52,927 nucleotides of DNA from an uncultured Phascolarctobacterium sp. (GTDB lineage Bacteria; Bacillota; Negativicutes; Acidaminococcales; Acidaminococcaceae), in NCBI GenBank assembly GCA_949285135.1, contig CASDXO010000003.1:1-52927 (forward strand). The letters are read 5' to 3'. This document shows positions 40,205 through 52,448 of the stretch, piece after piece; within the stretch, counting starts at the first letter, position 1, and each line of letters opens with the position of its first letter. A program made the translations under genes and the position numbers. The notes below the pieces were generated by a model that did not search any database, was not told the DNA's origin, and worked only from the letters and a program-made list of their open reading frames with translations.

Positions 40205-40867
40205 ATGCTGAGTTATAATATTGAAATTGTTAAGCTCACTTTGGCAAAATATAAGAAAATATTGGCAGCTTATAAGCTTATGAGGGCAGTACTGCAAAGC
40301 TGTCCTCATACTGTTTTGTGCCAGGATAAGGCAGTTTTGGCAAAAGCGACCGCCAAAGCGGAACAGGGCTGCCAGCAGGCAGAGCAGAATATCAGCCTGT
40401 GCCATCAGCTTATGGCAGGATATGACAGGCAGCAGACTGTAGATAAAGACGGCTACAGGCAGGCGCTGGTTAACATTTCCAAAAATCTGGCTGACCTTTA
40501 TAAGCTGAACCTGCTCTTATTTAACGATTTGCTGATTGGCACTGATTTAGTGCAGCAAAGCTACCTGCAGGATAATCCGACTGCAGATACAGATTTAAGC
40601 GAGTTTTACGGCAGGAATGAAACCGATTTACTTGCTTTACCGCTGCAGGAGCGCATGGAAAAACTGCAGTGCTCCGATTATACGCAGTTTTGCCGTAATT
40701 ATCCGCAGCTTGTCAGTGCGGCAGAATTTGCGGATTTGGTAAAATCAGGACTGATTACAAGTGCTGATGATATCATATTGCATAATAACAGGATATATGA
40801 AAATGAATTCAGTGAGCAGTGGGAAGAATACGAGTACGAATATGACAAATACAGAAAGAAAAAATAA
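40205..40867 (+). CDS. Protein of unknown function (220 aa)
   Basis: I do not recognise this family. The protein is predicted soluble and helical. It has six cysteines in the first 160 residues and an acidic, Tyr-rich C-terminus (EEYEYEYDKYRKKK). It begins 10 nt after the deacetylase gene and ends at a terminator, so it is the last gene of the operon. Codon use is like that of its neighbours. Confidence 0.7.
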   Translation: MLSYNIEIVKLTLAKYKKILAAYKLMRAVLQSCPHTVLCQDKAVLAKATAKAEQGCQQAEQNISLCHQLMAGYDRQQTVDKDGYRQALVNISKNLADLYKLNLLLFNDLLIGTDLVQQSYLQDNPTADTDLSEFYGRNETDLLALPLQERMEKLQCSDYTQFCRNYPQLVSAAEFADLVKSGLITSADDIILHNNRIYENEFSEQWEEYEYEYDKYRKKK

Positions 40868-41011: not shown

Positions 41012-41221
41012 ATGGCTGTCAGTTATAACAGACTGTGGAAGCTTTTAATAGATAAAAAAATAAATAAGACTCAGCTGTGCCGTCAGGCAAAAATTTCTAC
41101 CAATGCTATGGCAAAACTGGGTAAGAATGAAGATGTCCGTGTAGAAGTACTGGTAAAAATATGTACGGCTTTAAATTGCCGTATTGAAGATATTATGGAA
41201 ATCGTTCCCGGGAAAATCTGA
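41012..41221 (+). CDS. Small XRE-family regulator of the restriction operon
   Basis: The 69-aa protein is a single Cro/C1-type helix-turn-helix (LIDKKINKTQLCRQAKISTNAMAKLGKN, then VLVKICTALNCRIEDIMEIV). It lies 19 nt upstream of hsdR in the same direction. Size and placement resemble controller proteins that delay or limit restriction gene expression. The palindrome over the -10 supports this, but binding is inferred. Confidence 0.88.
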   Translation: MAVSYNRLWKLLIDKKINKTQLCRQAKISTNAMAKLGKNEDVRVEVLVKICTALNCRIEDIMEIVPGKI

Positions 41222-41240
41222 TTGTGAGGGAGATGGAAGC

Positions 41241-43592
41241 ATGGATGCGGTACTGTCTAAAAAACAAATGAGCGAGGAAGATATCAAGCTTCGTTATATA
41301 ACGCCTGCCATAACCGCTAAATGGCATACTGATAAAATCACTATGGAGACGCCTATTACCGATGGCAGAATAAATTTAAAGGGTAATGTAGCTGTTACGG
41401 AAAAGCCCAAAAGGGCAGATTACATTCTGTATCTTAACGCCAATAATCCTGTTGCTGTAATAGAAGCCAAAGACAATAAACACAGCGTTTCCTATGGTTT
41501 GCAGCAGGCCATGACTTATGCGCAGATGCTGGATGTTCCCTTTGCGTACAGCTCTAACGGCGACGGTTTTGCCGAGCATGATTTTCTGACCGGACAGGAA
41601 AGAGTACTTGCCTTGCACGAATTTCCCGGCGAAGAAGAGCTGATTGCCCGCTATAAACAGGAAGTAAATGGCGGCAAGGGTCTCAGTAAGCAGCAGGAAA
41701 AAATTCTGAATCAGCCTTATTACAGCAGTCAGACAACCTTTGCACCCCGCTATTATCAGCGTATTGCTATTAATCGCACTCTGGATGCCATCGCCCGCGG
41801 ACAAAACCGCATCCTGCTGGTTATGGCAACCGGCACCGGCAAAACATATACTGCTTTTCAGATAGTGTACCGTCTGCTCAAAAGCGGGATGAAACGCAAA
41901 ATTTTATATCTGGCTGACAGAAATATTCTGATTGACCAGTCCATGAAACAGGATTTTGCTCCCTTATCCAAAATAATGTGCCAGATAAATATGGCAAAGG
42001 TCAATAAAAGTACCATTACAGCCCATGAAGTATATTTTTCCCTGTATCAGCAGCTGGTAGGCGATAACGGCGAAGAACGCTTCCGTGATTTATTTCGACC
42101 GAACTTTTTCGATTTAGTCATTGTAGACGAATGTCATCGCGGTTCTGCCAAGGAAGAAAGCCGCTGGCGCAAAATTTTGGAATATTTTTCCGGTGCTACG
42201 CAGATAGGTATGACGGCTACGCCTAAAGAGACAAAATATATTTCCAACCTGAGTTATTTTGGTGAGCCTGTTTATACATACAGTCTGAAAAACGGTATCG
42301 AAGACGGTTTCCTTGCGCCGTTTAAAGTAATAAATATTACTACAGATATAGGTGAAGGCTGGCGGCCGCTCAAAGGTCAGCGCGACAAGCTGGGCAACGA
42401 GATACCCGACCGCGTATATACTAACAGCGATTTTGACTATAACATTGTCCTTGAAGACCGTACCCAGCAGGTAGCGCAGGAAATTACCCGTTACTTAAAA
42501 AGTACGGACAGGATGGCAAAGACCATTGTTTTCTGTCCTACGGAAGAAGCTGCAGAAAGAATGCGCGTAGCTTTAAATAACGCTAATGCCGATATGGTGC
42601 AGAAAAATCCTGATTATGTGGTGCGCATTACCGGCAGCGACGAGTACGGCAAAGGCAAGCTGGGATATTTTATCTCCGTAACGGCAAAATATCCCGTTAT
42701 TGCCACTACTTCCAAAATGCTTTCTACCGGCGTAGACTGCAAAATGGTCAAGCTGATTGTTTTAGACCAGATGATTGGCTCCATGACGGAATTTAAACAG
42801 ATTATCGGCAGAGGTACAAGGCTGCGTAAAAAAGAAGGCAAAAGCAGCTTTGTGGTTATGGATTTCCGCAATGTTACCCGTCTGTTTTCCGACCCGGACT
42901 GGGACGGCCCTATTGATATTGATGAAGGCTTTATGCCTAAGACACCGGGCGATATGCCGGATGACCCTGGTATACCGGATGGTATTGACCCGGGAACCAA
43001 GCCGCCGCGCGAGCCTAAACCTATAGTTGGCAAAGACGGCTGCACGGTAAAAATTATTAACAAAGTTGTTTCTGTTTACGATACTGACGGCAAGCTTTTA
43101 CGTCAGGAAAGCATAGTAGATTATACCAAGTCCAATATTTTGGGCGAATACGCTTCGCTGGATAACTTTATCCGGCAGTGGTCTGCGGAAAAGAAAAAGG
43201 CCAAAATCAGAGAACTGCTGCTGGAAAAAGGTATCGACCTGGAACTTTTGAAAGCAGAACAGGAGATGGGCGACGTAGATGATTTTGATTTTATCTGCCA
43301 CGTTGCCTTTGATAAAAAGCCTTTAACCCGCAGAGAACGCGCTAATAACGTGAAAAAGAAAGACTTTTTCAGCAAATACAGCGGCGCTGCTAAAGAAGTA
43401 CTGGAAAAATTACTGGACAGCTACATGGATTTGGGTATTTATGATATTGAAACAACTGATATTTTAAAAATGGACGACTTCAAAAAATTTGGCAAACCTG
43501 CAAGGATTGCCAGCTATTTTGGCGGCAAAGATCAGTATCTGCAGGCAGTAAAAGCCTTGGAAGAAGCACTATATGAAAATGAGGTAGGTTAA
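41241..43592 (+). CDS. hsdR: Type I restriction enzyme R subunit
   Basis: The 783-aa product has an N-terminal PD-(D/E)xK nuclease (RADYILYL near 59, then VIEAKD with Glu 75/Lys 77). An SF2 DNA-translocase motor follows, with ATGTGKT near 196-202, DECHRG near 296-301, MTATPKE and the late motif QIIGRGTRLR near 520. The C-terminal part is of the EcoEI_R_C type and binds the M/S complex. ATG 41241 is preferred to an upstream frame opening at 41184 that overlaps the XRE gene. It cuts unmodified DNA after translocation. All motor and nuclease motifs appear intact. Confidence 0.93.
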   Translation: MDAVLSKKQMSEEDIKLRYITPAITAKWHTDKITMETPITDGRINLKGNVAVTEKPKRADYILYLNANNPVAVIEAKDNKHSVSYGLQQAMTYAQMLDVPFAYSSNGDGFAEHDFLTGQERVLALHEFPGEEELIARYKQEVNGGKGLSKQQEKILNQPYYSSQTTFAPRYYQRIAINRTLDAIARGQNRILLVMATGTGKTYTAFQIVYRLLKSGMKRKILYLADRNILIDQSMKQDFAPLSKIMCQINMAKVNKSTITAHEVYFSLYQQLVGDNGEERFRDLFRPNFFDLVIVDECHRGSAKEESRWRKILEYFSGATQIGMTATPKETKYISNLSYFGEPVYTYSLKNGIEDGFLAPFKVINITTDIGEGWRPLKGQRDKLGNEIPDRVYTNSDFDYNIVLEDRTQQVAQEITRYLKSTDRMAKTIVFCPTEEAAERMRVALNNANADMVQKNPDYVVRITGSDEYGKGKLGYFISVTAKYPVIATTSKMLSTGVDCKMVKLIVLDQMIGSMTEFKQIIGRGTRLRKKEGKSSFVVMDFRNVTRLFSDPDWDGPIDIDEGFMPKTPGDMPDDPGIPDGIDPGTKPPREPKPIVGKDGCTVKIINKVVSVYDTDGKLLRQESIVDYTKSNILGEYASLDNFIRQWSAEKKKAKIRELLLEKGIDLELLKAEQEMGDVDDFDFICHVAFDKKPLTRRERANNVKKKDFFSKYSGAAKEVLEKLLDSYMDLGIYDIETTDILKMDDFKKFGKPARIASYFGGKDQYLQAVKALEEALYENEVG

Positions 43593-43595
43593 TAA

Positions 43596-45071
43596 ATGAG
43601 CAATCTGACAGGTTTTGTCAAAAGAATAAGAGATATTATGCGCAATGATGCCGGTGTCAACGGCGATGCGCAACGTATTGAGCAGATTACCTGGATGTTA
43701 TTTTTAAAAGTATACGACAGCAAGGAACGTGACTGGGAAATGGACGACGACGAGTATATTTCCATCCTCCCGGAAAACTGCCGCTGGGAAAACTGGGCTA
43801 AGGACGATAAAAGCGGTACAGCCATGACCGGCGACACGCTGCTGAACTTTGTCAACAACACTTTGTTTCCAACTCTTAAAACCTTGCCCGTAGACAGTGC
43901 TACACCCATAAAAAAGGCTATCGTGCAGACCACCTTTGCCGATGCCAACAACTATATGAAGGACGGCGTGCTGCTGCGGCAGGTAATCAATATTATTGAT
44001 GAACTGGATTTATCCAGCTATGAGGAAAGCCACGCCTTTGGCGAAATTTACGAATCCATCTTAAAAGAGCTGCAAAGCGCAGGCTCCTCCGGCGAATTTT
44101 ATACGCCCCGTGCCGTAACGGACTTTATGGCGAAGATGATTAAACCGCAGATTGGCGAAAAAATGGCAGACTTTGCCTGTGGTACCGGCGGCTTTCTGAC
44201 CAGCTGGCTCAAAGAGCTGCAGCCACAGATTAAAAATGCTGACGACGTGCAAAAATATGGTCAGTCCATTTACGGTATCGAGAAAAAGCAGTTTCCCTAT
44301 ATGCTGTGCATTACCAATATGCTGTTGCATGATATTGAGCTGCCCCAGATTTACCATGCCAATACCCTGTTAAATGATGTACTCAACTATACGGAAGAGG
44401 ATAAATTTGACGTAGTACTGATGAATCCGCCTTATGGCGGCAACGAGAAAAATGACGTAAAAAGCCATTTTCCTGCTGACCTTGCCAGCAGCGAAACGGC
44501 AGACCTGTTTATGTCCGTTATCATGTACCGTTTAAAGACTGACGGCAGAGCGGCAGTAATCCTGCCTGACGGCTTCTTATTCGGTACGGATAATGCCAAA
44601 GTAAATATCAAGAAAAAACTGCTCAGTGAATTTAACCTGCATACCGTTATCCGTATGCCGAGCAGTGTTTTTGCGCCCTATACCTCTATCACTACCAATA
44701 TACTTTTCTTTAACAACGACGGGGCTACTAAAGAAACCTGGTTTTATCGCCTTGATATGCCCGAAGGCTACAAGCATTTTTCCAAAACCAAGCCTATGAA
44801 GCTGGAACATTTTGACCCCGTTATCCAATGGTGGAATAACAGGCAGGAAATTACCGTTGACGGCTTTGATAAGGCAAAAAAATATACGGCAGCAGAACTG
44901 GCGCAGGATAAAGGCTATAACCTTGATTTATGCGGCTACCCCCATGAAGAAGAAGAAATACTTGAGCCTATGGATTTAATCCAGCGCTACGAAGAGCAGC
45001 GCGCATCCTTAAATGCGGAAATTGACAGAGTGCTGGCAGATATTACCGCTATCCTGGGAGGTAACAAATAA
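43596..45071 (+). CDS. hsdM: Type I restriction-modification M subunit (N6-adenine methyltransferase)
   Basis: The 491-aa product has an N-terminal HsdM helical domain. The SAM-binding motif FACGTGGF is near residue 193, and the catalytic NPPYGG is near 277-282, the gamma-class order for N6-adenine methylation. It starts 3 nt after hsdR and overlaps hsdS by one base (taatg). It methylates the site read by HsdS and, as M2S, protects host DNA. Confidence 0.95.
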   Translation: MSNLTGFVKRIRDIMRNDAGVNGDAQRIEQITWMLFLKVYDSKERDWEMDDDEYISILPENCRWENWAKDDKSGTAMTGDTLLNFVNNTLFPTLKTLPVDSATPIKKAIVQTTFADANNYMKDGVLLRQVINIIDELDLSSYEESHAFGEIYESILKELQSAGSSGEFYTPRAVTDFMAKMIKPQIGEKMADFACGTGGFLTSWLKELQPQIKNADDVQKYGQSIYGIEKKQFPYMLCITNMLLHDIELPQIYHANTLLNDVLNYTEEDKFDVVLMNPPYGGNEKNDVKSHFPADLASSETADLFMSVIMYRLKTDGRAAVILPDGFLFGTDNAKVNIKKKLLSEFNLHTVIRMPSSVFAPYTSITTNILFFNNDGATKETWFYRLDMPEGYKHFSKTKPMKLEHFDPVIQWWNNRQEITVDGFDKAKKYTAAELAQDKGYNLDLCGYPHEEEEILEPMDLIQRYEEQRASLNAEIDRVLADITAILGGNK

Positions 45072-46537
45072 TGACGCCGCAGGAATTAAAAAACAGCATC
45101 CTGCAGCTGGCAGTACAGGGTAAGCTGGTAGAGCAGCGGGCAGAAGAAGGCACAGCAGAAGAGCTGTATAAAAAAATACAGGCAGAAAAGCAGAAGCTGA
45201 TAGCAGAAAAGAAAATAAAAAAAGAAAAGCCCCTGCCGGAAATAACGGCAGAGGAAATCCCCTTTGAAATTCCAGAGAGTTGGAAATGGGTACGGTTGGG
45301 GGATATTACTTCTATTTTAGGAGATGGAATTCACGGAACACCTTGTTTTGATGATAATGGTCAATATTATTTTATAAATGGAAATAATTTGGTTAAAGGT
45401 AAAATTGTAATAAAATCTGATACTAAAAAAGTTTCTTTTGAAGAATTCATAAAATATAAAAAACATTTGGATTATAATACAATTTTAATATCAATTAATG
45501 GTACAATAGGAAATTATGCTTTTTATAACGGGGAGCCAATTGTACTTGGAAAAAGTGCATGCTATTTTTCTATTCTGGGTAATAATGATAAAAATTATAT
45601 TTGTTATTTATTAAATACAAAGCATTTTTTTGATTATGCTGTAAAAAAAGCAACACAAACAACTATAAAAAATATTTCTTTAAAAGCGATGAGAATGTTG
45701 CCTGTTGCATTACCACCTTTGGCTGAACAAAAACGTATTGTAACTAAAATTGAAGAACTGTTGCCGCAAATTGACTGTTACGAACAGGTTTACAGCAAAC
45801 TGAAAGAGTTTAACAAGCGCTTTCCGGAGGATATGCAAAAATCCATCCTGCAATATGCAGTGCAGGGTAAACTGGTAGAGCAGCGAGCAGAAGAAGGCAC
45901 GGCAGAAGAACTGTATAAAAAAATACAGGCAGAAAAACAAAAGCTGACAGCAGAAAAGAAAATTAAAAAAGAAAAACCCCTGCCGGAAATAACAGCGGAG
46001 GAAATTCCCTTTGATATTCCAGAAAGCTGGAAATGGGTAAGGTTAAAAGATATTGTTTACAATAGGGGTCAGATGAAACCTGTTGAACCATTTTCATATA
46101 TTGATATTGGATCTATTGATAATAAAAGACAATTATTAAATAGCGAAGAAAATATAATTCAGCCTGACAAAGCACCATCAAGGGCAAGAAAAATAGTTGC
46201 TTATGGAGATATTCTTTACTCTACTGTTAGACCGTATTTACATAATATGTGTATAATAAATAAAACATTTTCATATATGCCCATAGCCAGTACTGGTTTT
46301 GCAGTTTTAACCTGTTGTAAAGGTATATTAAATAAGTTTCTATTTTATTATCTTTTATCTCCCAATTTTGATAGTTATGCAAATTCCAATGATAACTCTA
46401 AAGGTGTAGCGTACCCTGCCATTAATGATGATAAACTATACAAAGGATTAGTACCTCTCCCACCATTGGAAGAACAAAAGCGTATTGTTGCTAAAATTAA
46501 AGAATTATTGCCGTTGTGTGAGAAGTTGAAAAAGTAA
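45071..46537 (+). CDS. hsdS: Type I restriction-modification specificity subunit
   Basis: The 488-aa product has two target-recognition domains (about residues 75-220 and 325-475). Each ends in the PLPPLAEQKRI or PLPPLEEQKRI helix that starts a conserved spacer. A 210-bp segment (45098-45307) recurs at 45845-46054 with no gaps. It encodes QGKLVEQRAEEGTAEELYKK and the EIPF(E/D)IPESWKWVRL entry into each domain. The recognition domains are far more AT-rich than these spacers, which suggests domain shuffling. The two half-sites of the target cannot be predicted from sequence. Confidence 0.93.
   Translation: MTPQELKNSILQLAVQGKLVEQRAEEGTAEELYKKIQAEKQKLIAEKKIKKEKPLPEITAEEIPFEIPESWKWVRLGDITSILGDGIHGTPCFDDNGQYYFINGNNLVKGKIVIKSDTKKVSFEEFIKYKKHLDYNTILISINGTIGNYAFYNGEPIVLGKSACYFSILGNNDKNYICYLLNTKHFFDYAVKKATQTTIKNISLKAMRMLPVALPPLAEQKRIVTKIEELLPQIDCYEQVYSKLKEFNKRFPEDMQKSILQYAVQGKLVEQRAEEGTAEELYKKIQAEKQKLTAEKKIKKEKPLPEITAEEIPFDIPESWKWVRLKDIVYNRGQMKPVEPFSYIDIGSIDNKRQLLNSEENIIQPDKAPSRARKIVAYGDILYSTVRPYLHNMCIINKTFSYMPIASTGFAVLTCCKGILNKFLFYYLLSPNFDSYANSNDNSKGVAYPAINDDKLYKGLVPLPPLEEQKRIVAKIKELLPLCEKLKK
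45098..46054 (+). repeat. 210-bp direct repeat inside hsdS
   Basis: 45098-45307 and 45845-46054 align without gaps at an offset of 747 bp (249 codons) and are nearly identical, with scattered mostly synonymous changes. Recombination between them would delete exactly one recognition domain in frame. Confidence 0.85.
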
Positions 46538-46604: not shown

Positions 46605-48674
46605 ATGAAGATAAAAAAGATTACTATACAAAATTATAGAAAAATACATGATGCATTAATTGATATGGAAGATAATATAACAATAATTGCTGGTGCTAAT
46701 AATAGTGGTAAAACTTCTTTAGTTGAATTGTTTAATGCAATATTCGGTGAGAAAAAAGGAAAATTACGTGGTAACGATATTCCAGTAATAGAATATAAAA
46801 AGTGGGAAGACAAAGTATATCCTATTTTCTATCAAGGGTTTCTTGATAAAATGCCTAAAAATCAATTTTTAGAATATATTGACTCAAATATTCTTGCATC
46901 TGAAAATGAGAAATTAATACCTCCGCTTACAGTTAAAATACAGGTTGACTATGACAAAGATAAAGATGATATAAGATATTTTGCTGACTATATTATGGAA
47001 TTAGATCCTGATAATACTAGCTTTTATTTTGTTTATAAATATGAATTAAACAAATCATCTTTTAGGGAATCATTGGATACTCATTATGAAAAATTACTTT
47101 CTAGATTACAAAAAATAACTGGTGACGAAAAAAAGGATATAGACATAATTCGTTCTATTAAAGAAATACTTACTACATCATATTCTAATGCATGCGAAGA
47201 GAAAGTTTATTTTTGTGATAAAGATTATAGCAATGTCGTTCAATTAGAAATAACGGAATTTAAAAGGCTTTTTAATTATCGTCATATTATGGCGGGAAGA
47301 ACGTTAGATGATGAAAATTCTGATAGAAGTCATATACTTAGTAAAAATATGATTGACATAGCTAGTAGTGAAGAGGATTGGAAAGATTTTATTGGTAACC
47401 TTCCTGAACAAATTCTTTTGCCTATTCAAGATGCAAAAATTAAAGAAAAAGTACGCAAGGCATCTATAGAATCATTAAGTGATGCTATAGATGCCATAGC
47501 AAAAACTAATGGAGGGCAAACTGGTAATATTGTTATTGATATGGATATTACCGATGAATCAATTCAATCTTTTTTTAAGTCGATTACATGTGCAAAATAT
47601 CAGACAGATGACTGTTATTTAAGCGAATCTTCTCAAGGGCTGGGATATAGTAATCTTATCTATATTCATCTTCAGTTAGAAAAATTTAGAAAAACTATTA
47701 ATAAATATATTGTAAATTTTTTTATCATAGAAGAGCCAGAAGCACATATGCATCCTCAAATGCAAAATGTTTTTACAAAGTATCTGCTAAAGTATTATAA
47801 AAATATAGGGAATATTCAAGGTATCCTTACTACACATTCACATGAAGTGGTTAGAAATGCAAATATTTCACAACTTAGAGTATTAAGACAGCTCTCAGCT
47901 TTTGAATGTAAGATATATGATTTGAAGAAGTTTTGTAAAAATATAGAAGGTAATAAAAGCCAACTTGAATTTTATGATTTACTTTATACTATTAATTTTC
48001 CTGATATTATATTCGCTGATAAAATTATCTTGTATGAAGGTGACACTGAAAGAATGTTAATAAAGGATGTGTTGAAAAAAGATAAAGAGTACGAAGATTT
48101 AAGCAATCAATATCTTTCTTTTGTTCAAGTAGGTGGAGCATATGCTTACAATTATAGAGATATTATTGATTTTCTAAAAATTAAAGCTGTATTAATTACA
48201 GATATAGATTATAACAAAGCAGCTAAGACCAAAGAAACAATTTTGTCTTCAACTACGACTAATGAGACAATAAAAAAATTTGCAATAGAAATGGTGAGTA
48301 TTGAACAAGTAACAGTTGAGGATTTGTATAAATGGAAAGATGATTCTTCATCAATAGTCATTAATACTATTTATCTTGCTTTTCAGGGTAAAAATGATGG
48401 TATGGCACGAACGTTGGAAGAAGCAATGTTGGCTAAATATTATAACGTTTCTGTAATAGAACAAAAACAAAAAGAAGACTGGAAAGAGTTACGGAAAAAT
48501 GACAAATTAAAATATACAATACCAAAGGATGGAGACGAATGTAACATCAGAGATATTGTCGCTCATACTTCGGATAAAAAAACTGATTTCATGTATTCTG
48601 TAATTTTAAATCGTTTATCTGAACAAATGCTACCTAGTTATATAGCGGAGGCTTTAAAATGGCTGGCAAAATAA
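46605..48674 (+). CDS. OLD-family ATPase-nuclease, GajA-like
   Basis: The 689-aa protein has an N-terminal ABC-type ATPase: Walker A GANNSGKTS (residues 30-38), a signature-like SESSQGLGYSN near 341-351 and Walker B FFIIEEPEAHMHPQ near 372-385. A C-terminal TOPRIM domain follows, with LYEGDTE near 475-481 and ITDID near 531-535. That order is the OLD nuclease architecture. With the overlapping UvrD-like gene it matches Gabija (GajA-GajB). It is longer than the roughly 580 residues I recall for the characterised GajA, so it may be a divergent class-2 OLD protein. The gene is strongly AT-rich compared with hsdR and hsdM. Confidence 0.82.
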   Translation: MKIKKITIQNYRKIHDALIDMEDNITIIAGANNSGKTSLVELFNAIFGEKKGKLRGNDIPVIEYKKWEDKVYPIFYQGFLDKMPKNQFLEYIDSNILASENEKLIPPLTVKIQVDYDKDKDDIRYFADYIMELDPDNTSFYFVYKYELNKSSFRESLDTHYEKLLSRLQKITGDEKKDIDIIRSIKEILTTSYSNACEEKVYFCDKDYSNVVQLEITEFKRLFNYRHIMAGRTLDDENSDRSHILSKNMIDIASSEEDWKDFIGNLPEQILLPIQDAKIKEKVRKASIESLSDAIDAIAKTNGGQTGNIVIDMDITDESIQSFFKSITCAKYQTDDCYLSESSQGLGYSNLIYIHLQLEKFRKTINKYIVNFFIIEEPEAHMHPQMQNVFTKYLLKYYKNIGNIQGILTTHSHEVVRNANISQLRVLRQLSAFECKIYDLKKFCKNIEGNKSQLEFYDLLYTINFPDIIFADKIILYEGDTERMLIKDVLKKDKEYEDLSNQYLSFVQVGGAYAYNYRDIIDFLKIKAVLITDIDYNKAAKTKETILSSTTTNETIKKFAIEMVSIEQVTVEDLYKWKDDSSSIVINTIYLAFQGKNDGMARTLEEAMLAKYYNVSVIEQKQKEDWKELRKNDKLKYTIPKDGDECNIRDIVAHTSDKKTDFMYSVILNRLSEQMLPSYIAEALKWLAK

Positions 48675-50605
48675 AAAATTGTTTTTTAGTGAATGCGGCT
48701 GCTGGCAGTGGGAAGACTACAAAAATAAAATCTATGATAAAAAGTTTTCTTGAGGAAGATAAGAAAAATAATATTTTGTGTATTACCTATACGAATAGGG
48801 CAGCAGATGAGTTGGCAGAAGGATTTGATATCAATAGATTATACGTGGGAACAATACATTCATTTCTCCATAGTTTCATGAAAAATTATTTTAAACATAA
48901 AGATATATTAAAATTATATTTTGATTTTTTTGGCAAAAGTATATTGGAGAGAATTACAAATGTGGAGAATAAAAAAAATATAGAAGAAAGTAATCAAAAG
49001 TATATAGAAAAATATGGGCAATTAAATCTTGATATTATCAAAGAAAATATTAAATGTATTTCGTATAATGAGTCTCAATTTAGTACATTATATTATGGTG
49101 GATTGTCACATGATGACTTAATTGCTTTTTCAAAATATGTTTTTGATAACTATCCGATTATGCTTAAAAGATTATCCTCTAAGTATCAATATATTTTTAT
49201 TGATGAATATCAAGATACTATGGCGGAAGTTTTAAAAATTTTTTTTGAGAGTGTTAAAGAATCTTCAAGTGAATTATATTTATTTGGAGATCGCATGCAG
49301 CAGATTTATAAAAATTACGATGGTTCATTTGAAGAACAGTTTAATCTTTTTGATGACACTCAATTATTATCTACTAATTATCGTTCGGTGGAAGAAATTG
49401 TAAGTATTTTGAATAAAATATATAATGACAAATGTTTTATTCAAAAAGTTTCAGAGTCAATGAAAGAGGTAATACCAGATTTTTTGCCTAGAGTGGTAAT
49501 AAGTAATAACGTTGAGTCATATATTAGAAATATAAAATTAGAGAATCCTAATACATTGGTTTTATATATTCTCAATAAAGAACGGTTTAAAGATATTGGA
49601 GTATCTAACCTTTACCAAGCGTTTTTCAATATGAGAAAATATTCATTTGGGAAAAATTATTCACCTGCAGATGTTTTAACTACATCATACAATGATAATC
49701 CTGACTCATTTTTAAAATTATTATATTGTGTAACAGAAATGGAAGAGCATTTTAGAAAACAACAATATGGAGTTATAGTAAAAATTTTAAAATCAAACAA
49801 ATCAATGTTTTCAAAAGAAGCTTGTTGCATACAAAAACATTCAGATAAAGAGAGATTATTTGATAATCTAAAAAAATTTTTCTGTGTTTTTGAAGATACA
49901 AATAAAACTATATCTGATTTAATTGATATATTAAAAAGTACTTCCTTTTTGGAAGAGTCTTATATAAATGAAATTTTATCTGATGAAGATAACGCACAAG
50001 TTCTTGATGTTCCTGCTATTGAGTTAAAGCGAATTGTCGAATATTTAGATAGTCCAAAAGTGTCTACTCAACATGGCGTAAAAGGAGAAAGCCATGATAG
50101 CGTGTTATTTGTTGCAGATGATAGTATGAATAATCCTTTGGTTCATATGTATAGTTTCTTTGAGATGTGGGGAAGATTACAAGTATCTTTAAAGTCATTT
50201 AATGAATTTTATTATGCTTATTGTAAAGAAATTATTGATTTACAAAATAAAATTGGGATGAAGCCAAATGAGTTAAAAAAGGAATCTTATTTGGTTAATA
50301 AAAGCTGTATTGAAAATAAACTTAAAGAAATCCAATCTGAATTTTATGGTAATCCATATTTTTCCTTTTTGTATGAAGAACTCTATGGCAAGTATTTTAA
50401 CAAACCAGGAGTAACTGCAGCCAAAGATTGTTTAAAGGATAGTACAATGTTTGGAGTTTTAAGTGCATATAAACTTTTTTATGTTGGTTGTTCTCGAGCA
50501 AGAAGAAATTTAACTATATTATTAGATAGGTCAAAAATAAAAGGTGATTTATCTATATTAAAAGCAAAGCTTATTGAAATTGGTTTCAAAGTAGAAGAAG
50601 TATAA
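48659..50605 (+). CDS. UvrD/PcrA-like superfamily 1 helicase, GajB-like
   Basis: The 648-aa protein contains the SF1A motif set: Walker A AAAGSGKTT (about 13-21), TYTNRAADEL, IDEYQDT (about 181-187), LFGDRMQQIY, NYRS (about 240-243), STQHGVKGE (about 468-476) and LFYVGCSRARRNL (about 605-617). The segment between motifs IV and V is long and unfamiliar. It overlaps the OLD-nuclease gene by 16 nt, so the products are co-translated. In Gabija the helicase partner forms a large complex with the nuclease. It is larger than the roughly 490-residue GajB I recall. Very AT-rich, consistent with transfer. Confidence 0.82.
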   Translation: MAGKIKNCFLVNAAAGSGKTTKIKSMIKSFLEEDKKNNILCITYTNRAADELAEGFDINRLYVGTIHSFLHSFMKNYFKHKDILKLYFDFFGKSILERITNVENKKNIEESNQKYIEKYGQLNLDIIKENIKCISYNESQFSTLYYGGLSHDDLIAFSKYVFDNYPIMLKRLSSKYQYIFIDEYQDTMAEVLKIFFESVKESSSELYLFGDRMQQIYKNYDGSFEEQFNLFDDTQLLSTNYRSVEEIVSILNKIYNDKCFIQKVSESMKEVIPDFLPRVVISNNVESYIRNIKLENPNTLVLYILNKERFKDIGVSNLYQAFFNMRKYSFGKNYSPADVLTTSYNDNPDSFLKLLYCVTEMEEHFRKQQYGVIVKILKSNKSMFSKEACCIQKHSDKERLFDNLKKFFCVFEDTNKTISDLIDILKSTSFLEESYINEILSDEDNAQVLDVPAIELKRIVEYLDSPKVSTQHGVKGESHDSVLFVADDSMNNPLVHMYSFFEMWGRLQVSLKSFNEFYYAYCKEIIDLQNKIGMKPNELKKESYLVNKSCIENKLKEIQSEFYGNPYFSFLYEELYGKYFNKPGVTAAKDCLKDSTMFGVLSAYKLFYVGCSRARRNLTILLDRSKIKGDLSILKAKLIEIGFKVEEV

Positions 50606-50833: not shown

Positions 50834-50980
50834 ATGAGAAAACATATTAAAACTGTTAATAAAGCTATGCTGAACAAAACTCTCCGCACCGGCGGCTGCG
50901 GCGAATGCCCGGCTTCCTGCCAATCCGCTTGCAAAACTTCCTGCACCGTTGGCAACCAGGTTTGCGAACACAGCAAATAA
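50834..50980 (+). CDS. SCIFF six-cysteine ranthipeptide precursor
   Basis: This 48-aa precursor begins MRKHIKTVNKAMLNKTLRTG and continues into a core with six cysteines: CGECPASCQSACKTSC, then TVGNQVCEHSK. Spacing C-x2-C-x3-C-x3-C-x3-C-x6-C is that of the SCIFF family (six cysteines in forty-five residues). The family is a thioether-bridged peptide made by the neighbouring radical SAM enzyme. ATG 50834 is 8 nt from ggagg; ATG 50831 is also in frame. GC content returns to the chromosomal level here, so the locus is probably not part of the defence island. Confidence 0.92.
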   Translation: MRKHIKTVNKAMLNKTLRTGGCGECPASCQSACKTSCTVGNQVCEHSK

Positions 50981-51050: not shown

Positions 51051-52448
51051 ATGCTTATACATAAAATGCGTTTAGATGATAATATGGCGGTGCTGGACGT
51101 TAACAGCGGCGCAGTGCATCTTGTGGACGAGGTTATCTACGATTTGCTTGATTATTATGATGGCAGCAACGATGAAGCAGCAGTTGCCGCTTTAAAAGAC
51201 CGTTATAGTGAAGAAGATCTGCGCGATGCGCTGCAGGAGCTGCACGGACTGCAGGAAGAAGGCCTGCTGTTCAGTCCTGCTTTTGATGTGCCGCCCACTT
51301 TTTCTGAAACGCCGATTTTAAAATCTCTGTGCCTGCACGTTGCCCATGACTGCAACTTGCGCTGCGGCTACTGCTTTGCCGGTACCGGAGATTTTGGCGG
51401 CTGCCGTGAGCTGATGAGCAAGGAAACCGCGGAAAAGGCAGTGGAATTTGCCATTAAAGGCAGCCGTCAGCGCCATAATCTGGAGCTTGACCTTTTTGGC
51501 GGCGAACCGCTGATGAATTATGATGTTGTGCAGCATATCGTCAACTATGTGCGTAAAAGGGAAAAGGAAACAGGCAAAAATATTAAACTGACCCTTACTA
51601 CCAACGGCACTTTGCTGAATGATGAAAATATCAAATTCCTCAATGATAACCGTGTTATGCTGGTGCTGAGCCTGGACGGTAAAAAGGAAACCCATGACGC
51701 CATGCGTCCGTTCCCCAATAAGACAGGCAGCTATGATGCGGCTGTGCGCGGCTTTAAGAAGGTTATCGACAGCCGCAAAGGCAAAAACTACTATCTGCGC
51801 GGCACTTATACCCATTTCAGCCGTCATTTTGCCGACGAGGTACTGGACATGCTTAAAGTAGGCCGCGAAATTTCCGTCGAGCCGGTAGTGGGCATTGACG
51901 AACCTTATGTACTTACCGAAGAAGATTTACCCGTATTATTTGAAGAATATGACAAGCTGGCGCGCGCTTATCTGGAAAAACGCCGCAATGGTGAGCCGTT
52001 TGACTTCTTCCATTTCAATGTGGCGCTGGACAATGGCCCCTGCGTGGCTAAACGTCTGGCAGGCTGCGGTGCGGGGCACGAATATTTTGCCATCACTCCC
52101 GAGGGAGATATCTATCCCTGCCATCAGTTTGTCGGTCGTGAGCAGTACAAGCTGGGCACCCTTGACACCGGCGTGGTAAAAAATGACTTGGTGCAGAAAT
52201 TCCGTCATACCCATGTTATGACGAAGCCCGAATGCAGCAAATGCTGGGCGCGTTTCTTCTGCAGCGGCGGCTGCCATGCCAATGCTGACCTGATTAACGG
52301 CGACATCAGCAAGCCTTATGAATACGGCTGCAAGCTCCAGAAAAAACGTCTGGAATGCGCAATCATTATTCAGGCACTTTTGGCTGCCGAAGCACAGGAA
52401 GGCAAGGATCTGCGTCCGCATATCAACAATTTTACCTACGAAAAATAA
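51051..52448 (+). CDS. SCIFF peptide radical SAM maturase (thioether-forming)
   Basis: The 465-aa enzyme has an N-terminal peptide-binding region (about 1-90, RiPP recognition-like). The radical SAM motif is C-x3-C-x2-C (HDCNLRCGYCFAGTG, about 99-113). Two Cys-rich blocks typical of SPASM/twitch auxiliary clusters follow: GPCVAKRLAGCGAGHEYF...PEGDIYPCHQF and PECSKCWARFFCSGGCHANAD. It should form Cys sulfur to alpha/beta/gamma-carbon crosslinks in the SCIFF peptide. It is adjacent to and downstream of the precursor, and its own terminator follows. Confidence 0.93.
   Translation: MLIHKMRLDDNMAVLDVNSGAVHLVDEVIYDLLDYYDGSNDEAAVAALKDRYSEEDLRDALQELHGLQEEGLLFSPAFDVPPTFSETPILKSLCLHVAHDCNLRCGYCFAGTGDFGGCRELMSKETAEKAVEFAIKGSRQRHNLELDLFGGEPLMNYDVVQHIVNYVRKREKETGKNIKLTLTTNGTLLNDENIKFLNDNRVMLVLSLDGKKETHDAMRPFPNKTGSYDAAVRGFKKVIDSRKGKNYYLRGTYTHFSRHFADEVLDMLKVGREISVEPVVGIDEPYVLTEEDLPVLFEEYDKLARAYLEKRRNGEPFDFFHFNVALDNGPCVAKRLAGCGAGHEYFAITPEGDIYPCHQFVGREQYKLGTLDTGVVKNDLVQKFRHTHVMTKPECSKCWARFFCSGGCHANADLINGDISKPYEYGCKLQKKRLECAIIIQALLAAEAQEGKDLRPHINNFTYEK

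Follow-up and report, generated by a model that had tools for sequence, protein, structure and literature searches.

Does a nuclease-helicase gene pair in the genome of an uncultured Phascolarctobacterium sp. belong to the antiphage system Gabija, to a separate system of similar composition, or to housekeeping DNA repair? The pair lies on contig CASDXO010000003.1 of assembly GCA_949285135.1 (positions 1 to 52,927 of the forward strand; this whole stretch of 52,927 nucleotides is hereafter the window), where gajA (46605..48674, plus strand) encodes a class 2 OLD nuclease of 689 amino acids (aa) with an ABC ATPase and a Toprim domain, and gajB (48659..50605, plus strand) encodes a UvrD-like superfamily 1A (SF1A) helicase of 648 aa, as identified from open reading frames (ORFs), PADLOC, and Pfam. 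We read the two genes, with a probability of roughly 0.8, as members of one deep Gabija subfamily, an OLD nuclease of class 2 with its UvrD-type helicase, which are predicted to act as a GajA-GajB complex against phage DNA. In structure the pair departs from other Gabija, but the defence is of a known kind and not a new one.

Composition of the pair and the GajA nuclease

The two genes overlap by 16 nt in the ORF list, and a GGAG-type stretch precedes the start codon of each. Searches of PADLOC-DB (2023 version) returned the GajA profile PDLC00082 as the best match of GajA (966.9 bits, residues 1-688, profile length 694) and the GajB profile PDLC00109 as the best match of GajB (824.8 bits, residues 2-647, profile length 647), which answers the hidden Markov model search proposed in a first-pass annotation of this DNA. 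Because both profiles match end to end at equal lengths, the subfamily is already catalogued as Gabija, and we found no difference between the window pair and these two entries, which are filed under the general name. Pfam placed AAA_15 and OLD-like_TOPRIM, both above cut-off, in an N-terminal ABC ATPase and a C-terminal Toprim domain on the single 689-aa protein, and UvrD-helicase above cut-off in GajB; together with the ORFs, their overlap, and the core motifs given below, this verifies the two overlapping genes that the annotation had described as an ABC-ATPase/Toprim nuclease and an SF1A helicase. Its impression that both proteins exceed known GajA and GajB in length holds against Bacillus cereus (578 and 494 aa, from domain limits in passages of PMC10822852) but not against the PADLOC profiles (694 and 647 positions).

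A genome scan through GajA returned 135 relatives, from which 78 distinct loci were retained. A same-strand helicase ORF lies downstream of gajA in 77 of these 78, the exception being L036, whose contig ends inside gajA; frames are split in the helicases of L016 and L052 and in gajA of L082, and the helicase is cut by the contig in L009, L045, and L078. Comparisons below draw on 45 subfamily loci, on a sister helicase-linked OLD clade (L054-L086; 33 rows) that includes Bacteroidota and, by tree, a Sinorhizobium relative, and on canonical-type loci (L127, L133, L134, and the more distant L135).

Residue conservation was counted in one alignment of 46 rows, the window plus the 45 subfamily loci. 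In the ATPase half, GajA carries Walker A GANNSGKTS (residues 30-38, 46692..46718; K36 in 46/46 rows), the ABC signature region SSQGLGYSN (residues 342-350, 47628..47654), Walker B FFIIEEPE (residues 372-379, 47718..47741; E377 in 46/46), and an H-loop. The catalytic set of the class 2 nuclease BpOLD comprises E400, E404, D455, D457, T506, E508, and K562 (PMC6755086), with which we paired GajA residues by motif order and not by superposition on BpOLD. So paired, ExxxE (E478 and E482, 48036..48050) corresponds to E400/E404, DxD (D533 and D535, 48198..48209) to D455/D457, and TxE (T603 and E605, 48408..48422) to T506/E508, each in 46/46 rows, while K659 within KKTDFMY (48576..48596) corresponds to K562 of BpOLD and K541 of B. 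cereus GajA in 45 rows, the remaining row being a gap in the truncated L036. Judged by sequence, then, the full class 2 OLD catalytic residue set is present in GajA. Outside the subfamily, position 603 is S instead of T in 32 of the 33 sister rows (the other is a gap) and N in the canonical-type L127, and L128 has G at position 659, where misalignment is possible.

These residues also bear on class membership. In passages of a review (PMC10568477), class 2, an OLD protein beside a UvrD-like helicase, is equated with GajA, and class 1 OLD nucleases such as P2 Old and TsOLD are single genes without a helicase partner, unlike the window pair; the TxE and K positions of P2 Old, moreover, fail to align with the window GajA. 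Class 3 (retron) would call for an adjacent reverse transcriptase, and the neighbours here are hsdS upstream and a SCIFF peptide with its maturase downstream; class 4 (PARIS) has ATPase and Toprim on separate proteins, which here form one.

Structure prediction of GajA alone gave an ATPase plus Toprim model closest to solved GajA, its best full-length fold match. Helices are modelled between DxD and the C-terminus and could be the helical Toprim-half insert that distinguishes class 2 from class 1. By motif spacing, the additional length of GajA is mainly in the ATPase half. Walker A and signature lie 309 residues apart here, within the 303-322 of four subfamily rows; the distance is 281 and 284 in a pair of sister rows, 277 in L128, 279 in L129, and as little as 214 in the canonical-type L127. 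Within this enlarged half, the model places helices at residues 55-106 (46767..46922), the least conserved part (0.49), and two long helices at residues 149-196 (47049..47192).

The GajB helicase and a block between motifs V and VI

Motifs I, Ia, Ib, II, III, IV, V, and VI of the helicase were located in GajB. They include Walker A AGSGKT (residues 15-20, 48701..48718), motif II DEYQDT (residues 182-187, 49202..49219), motif V STQHGVKGESH (residues 469-479, 50063..50095), and motif VI YVGCSRAR (residues 608-615, 50480..50503); a Q motif was not seen on inspection of the sequence, in which only 14 residues precede Walker A. The protein shows the 1A, 1B, 2A, and 2B domains of an SF1A helicase.

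The first-pass annotation had pointed to a long unfamiliar region between motifs IV and V, and this is where our measurements depart from it. Using NYRS 240 and H472 of GajB as anchors in all rows compared, the IV-V spacing is an ordinary 232 residues (221-235 in 33 of the 45 subfamily rows, 12 being unmeasured). Four canonical-type GajB proteins have 204-234, the 21 sister rows measured (of 33) have 220-293, and the PcrA of this genome has 276, so that residues 306-465 (49574..50053) are a helical 2B-like region of common size. The extra block lies instead between motifs V and VI. Their spacing is 136 residues here and 131-139 in 41/41 measurable subfamily rows (of 45), compared with 46-52 in 32 of 33 sister rows, 38-45 in 4/4 canonical-type GajB proteins, and 35-64 in 6/6 other families, the genome's own PcrA having 40; the spacing could not be measured in L009, L016, L035, and L045 (truncated or broken) or in the sister locus L078 (cut). 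A block of ~90 residues between motifs V and VI is the distinguishing trait of subfamily GajB among the rows measured. The longer ATPase half of GajA, by comparison, changes by degrees across groups, and no row measured outside the subfamily has the V-VI block.

The V-VI segment that holds this helical insert (residues 487-602, 50117..50464) is modelled as mostly helical with a predicted local distance difference test (pLDDT) score of 84-96 in 10-residue blocks, and its conservation (0.62) equals that of the 2B-like region. It is slightly acidic (isoelectric point 5.9), which is not by itself suggestive of a DNA-binding surface. The GajB model is confident for this segment but not for motif V, where pLDDT falls below 50 at residues 469-476. 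A PDB search with the segment alone found nothing below E 0.16, and no published description of a V-VI insert or of a named Gabija subtype was found in the titles, abstract openings, and text passages that the search covered.

UvrD resembles GajB in motifs and overall fold, as do PcrA and Rep, but GajB differs from these helicases in its V-VI spacing (136 versus 40 in PcrA) and in being encoded beside an OLD nuclease. The resemblance also explains two profile hits that we set aside. The second-best PADLOC match of GajB, RTasHel (a helicase of DRT systems; 260.6 bits), hinted at a link to reverse-transcriptase defence and was rejected: this profile matches 198 of 199 genomes of the phylum, among the matches listed mostly at ~380-430 bits and in long frames that include this genome's PcrA, and being near-universal it reflects UvrD-likeness only. 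The GajB profile PDLC00122, of near-canonical length, was too broad, matching 199/199 genomes; through its best match it led to L107/L127, a locus of canonical type with a GajA that matches the solved B. cereus protein (E 1e-17).

Related loci, trees, and the relation to canonical Gabija

Trees were built from 36 GajA rows and 35 GajB rows, with 14 of the 46 subfamily rows and 10 of the 33 sister rows included. The subfamily occupies one side of a branch with support of 100/100 in the GajA tree and 100/99 in the GajB tree, the sister group is nearest in both, and the two trees agree in their main groups. The sister clade, within which L129, L136, and L138 are placed, shares gene order and Toprim residues with the window pair (S for T at 603) and differs in its short V-VI spacing and shorter GajB. 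The four canonical-type loci cluster at 65/33 (GajA tree) and 98/93 (GajB tree), their GajA lying further off from the subfamily, alongside L128 and L140.

Compared with Gabija of B. cereus VD045, the window pair has the same gene order, the same ABC ATPase-Toprim nuclease with an SF1A helicase partner, the same Toprim ExxxE, DxD, E, and K, and a GajA best matched over its full length by the solved fold, but its GajA is ~95 residues longer in the ATPase half (309 versus 214, measured on the canonical-type L127), its GajB carries the extra V-VI block of ~90 residues, and its GajA has no sequence match to the solved protein up to E 10. Gene order, residues, and fold place the pair in Gabija, and the Gabija composition and order recognised in the first-pass annotation are upheld by the PADLOC profiles, the class 2 residues, the GajA fold match, and the helicase downstream in 77/78 loci.

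Several observations weigh against so close a kinship. In the best tree the class 1 protein P2 Old and the helicase-linked L141 are placed between the subfamily and canonical GajA, with weak support and on long branches; class 2 is described as nested inside class 1 in passages of PMC12796447; and in the structure lists for GajB (Foldseek, VIA) UvrD, PcrA, RecB, and AddA rank above GajB, the model being nearer UvrD than B. cereus GajB. These points, together with the absence of B. cereus GajA from profile matches at E up to 10, would suit a separate OLD-helicase system, in which an OLD nuclease acquired its UvrD helicase in an event separate from canonical Gabija and would have a different assembly and trigger. 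Yet forcing all 34 sampled helicase-linked OLD proteins into one clade costs 1.37 log units and is not rejected by the approximately unbiased (AU) test (p-AU 0.234, the test having been chosen after the tree had been seen), the same gene order recurs in the other PADLOC GajA-GajB families L128, L129, and L140 and in L136 and L138, class 2 residues are largely common to the groups, and the GajA fold is best matched by solved GajA. We therefore consider a separate system, which the first-pass annotation had offered as an alternative, unlikely. Its other suggestion, a new Gabija subtype, stands as far as a well-supported clade with its own V-VI insert is concerned, but not as to novelty, given that PADLOC-DB 2023 profiles already fit end to end. 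The 11 uncharacterised OLD clades reported in passages of PMC12796447 could contain this subfamily.

The subfamily is widespread, with representatives in Bacillota, Actinomycetota, a Bartonella, a Heimdallarchaeota-binned contig, and Gastranaerophilales metagenome-assembled genomes, among others. A reverse scan of viral contigs through GajB found four distinct loci, all four with a GajA-type frame directly upstream; three belong to the subfamily (L164 and L165 look like near-identical copies) and one is distant (L166). One subfamily member, L137, sits on the Enterococcus faecalis plasmid LR962524, typed as mobilizable, with a GajA 49% identical over its full length to that of the window, and its pair matches PDLC00082 and PDLC00109 as well. 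The 4.4-kb Candidatus Heimdallarchaeota contig (L017) carries a full subfamily gajA-gajB pair, for which true transfer or binning error is possible. Gabija of Streptococcus thermophilus, considered as a tested member, is probably outside the subfamily, judged by locus length, since its locus is shorter (3.36 kb in passages of PMC11514479, versus 4.0 kb in the window). In L127, a 345-aa ORF (L127:3893-4927) follows the canonical-type pair on the same strand.

Genomic setting, acquisition, and proposed action

The GC (guanine plus cytosine) fraction is 0.28 in gajA, 0.264 in gajB, and 0.333 in hsdS, whereas the window as a whole stands at 0.435 and whiA and the SCIFF maturase reach 0.49-0.50. 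In the same-genus genome G001, matching DNA extends from 38001 (the start of the compared stretch) to position 43804 within hsdM (91%) and is found again from 50733 onwards (93%); G001 is without gajAB and keeps hsdR and the start of hsdM. The low GC of the pair and its absence from this genome suggest that gajAB was probably acquired recently. Both whiA and the SCIFF maturase were found, at the thresholds used, in 10 of 12 relatives searched (on one contig in eight), separated by 1.07-1.17 kb in G002, G003, G005, G006, G008, and G039, 2.1 kb in G038, 6.3 kb in G001, and 11.7 kb in the window. Among 60 relatives, 11 show any GajA match at E 1e-3 or better, each of them either partial or distant.

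That distribution bears on whether the two genes are a housekeeping DNA repair nuclease and helicase, as the UvrD/PcrA-like helicase fold and the RecF/Rad50/SMC-like ATPase matches might suggest. The matches in the 60 relatives reach at most 45% identity (the best, in G056, 31% over residues 1-540), the pair is of low GC and missing from the same-genus genome, the genome has its own PcrA (TIGR01073, 1019.5 bits, cut-off 911.2), and NCBIfam repair models score far below cut-off, so that a best match to a repair pair, which the first-pass annotation had named as the outcome that would overturn its proposal, did not occur. We regard a repair role as hardly credible.

Directly upstream and on the same strand lie hsdR (802 aa), hsdM (491 aa), and hsdS (488 aa) of a type I restriction system (41184-46537, plus strand; ORF and PADLOC), with 67 bp between hsdS and gajA. 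This arrangement, and the report in passages of PMC13304284 that Gabija often adjoins type I, II, or III restriction-modification systems in lactic acid bacteria, could point to a compound defence in which the two systems share DNA ends or methylation cues. Flank matches to these hsd genes, however, occur in only 2 of the 45 subfamily loci (one hsdM, one hsdS, no hsdR), a lower bound because flanks are of unequal length, with matches counted from 100 aa at E up to 1e-8 and limited to relatives of these hsd proteins, and G001 keeps hsdR and the hsdM start without gajAB. The restriction neighbour thus appears local, and a compound defence is very improbable; the annotation was right to place the pair next to a type I restriction system, but the association looks incidental. 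The hsd genes share the insertion site with gajAB, the AT-rich hsdS lying in the stretch lacking from G001 along with the pair, and the hsdM-like ORF of G001 (565 aa) diverges after its first part.

Directly downstream of gajB are a SCIFF ranthipeptide with six Cys (50834-50977, plus strand; TIGR03973, 86.7 bits) and then its thioether-forming radical SAM maturase (51051-52448, plus strand; TIGR03974, 582.5 bits). The order whiA-deacetylase-maturase is found in G002, G003, and G006, with no other same-strand ORF of at least 150 aa between. A 220-aa ORF (40205-40867) has no NCBIfam match (E up to 1e-5) and no Pfam match above cut-off; it is retained in G001, and no counterpart of at least 150 aa lies between whiA and the SCIFF maturase in G003 or G006.

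The pair is intact and probably functional in defence, and likely protects the cell from phages. With the active sites intact, the same outline of mechanism as in other Gabija systems is likely. Passages of published work describe a 4:4 complex of a GajA tetramer with GajB dimers that is required for defence (PMC10781630), nucleotide restraint of GajA cleavage with GajB said to sense DNA ends (PMC10822852), and, in P. aeruginosa, a block on circularisation of linear DNA unprocessed by RecBCD (PMC12407980, a preprint). Extrapolating from the B. cereus and P. aeruginosa systems, the window GajA would be a multimeric core held off by nucleotide, GajB, docked on its ATPase face, would respond to DNA ends or to a local loss of nucleotide, after which the Toprim site would cleave by two-metal catalysis, so that the predicted complex would cut invading phage DNA or block its joining.

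Motifs V and VI couple ATP and DNA in this helicase class. The subfamily block, which would lie on domain 2A beside these motifs, may serve as a DNA grip, as a contact site for GajA, or as a brake on the motor. Given its position in the motor half of an otherwise UvrD-like helicase, its effect is likely on the hold of GajB on DNA or GajA and not on the function of the system. A bolder proposal, which we find rather doubtful, is that this GajB would be a working DNA motor whose V-VI domain grips DNA ends or couples translocation, feeding invading DNA to GajA. For B. cereus GajB, in contrast, passages of PMC10681800 report that neither unwinding nor DNA binding could be detected, whether the protein was free or in complex with GajA, and that three UvrD elements are lacking, namely gating helix, GIG motif, and separation pin.

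Within the window, the two genes would be an ordinary acquired defence pair. For the family, a GajB whose model is closer to UvrD and which carries an extra block in its motor half may offer a second, well-separated test of the role of GajB.

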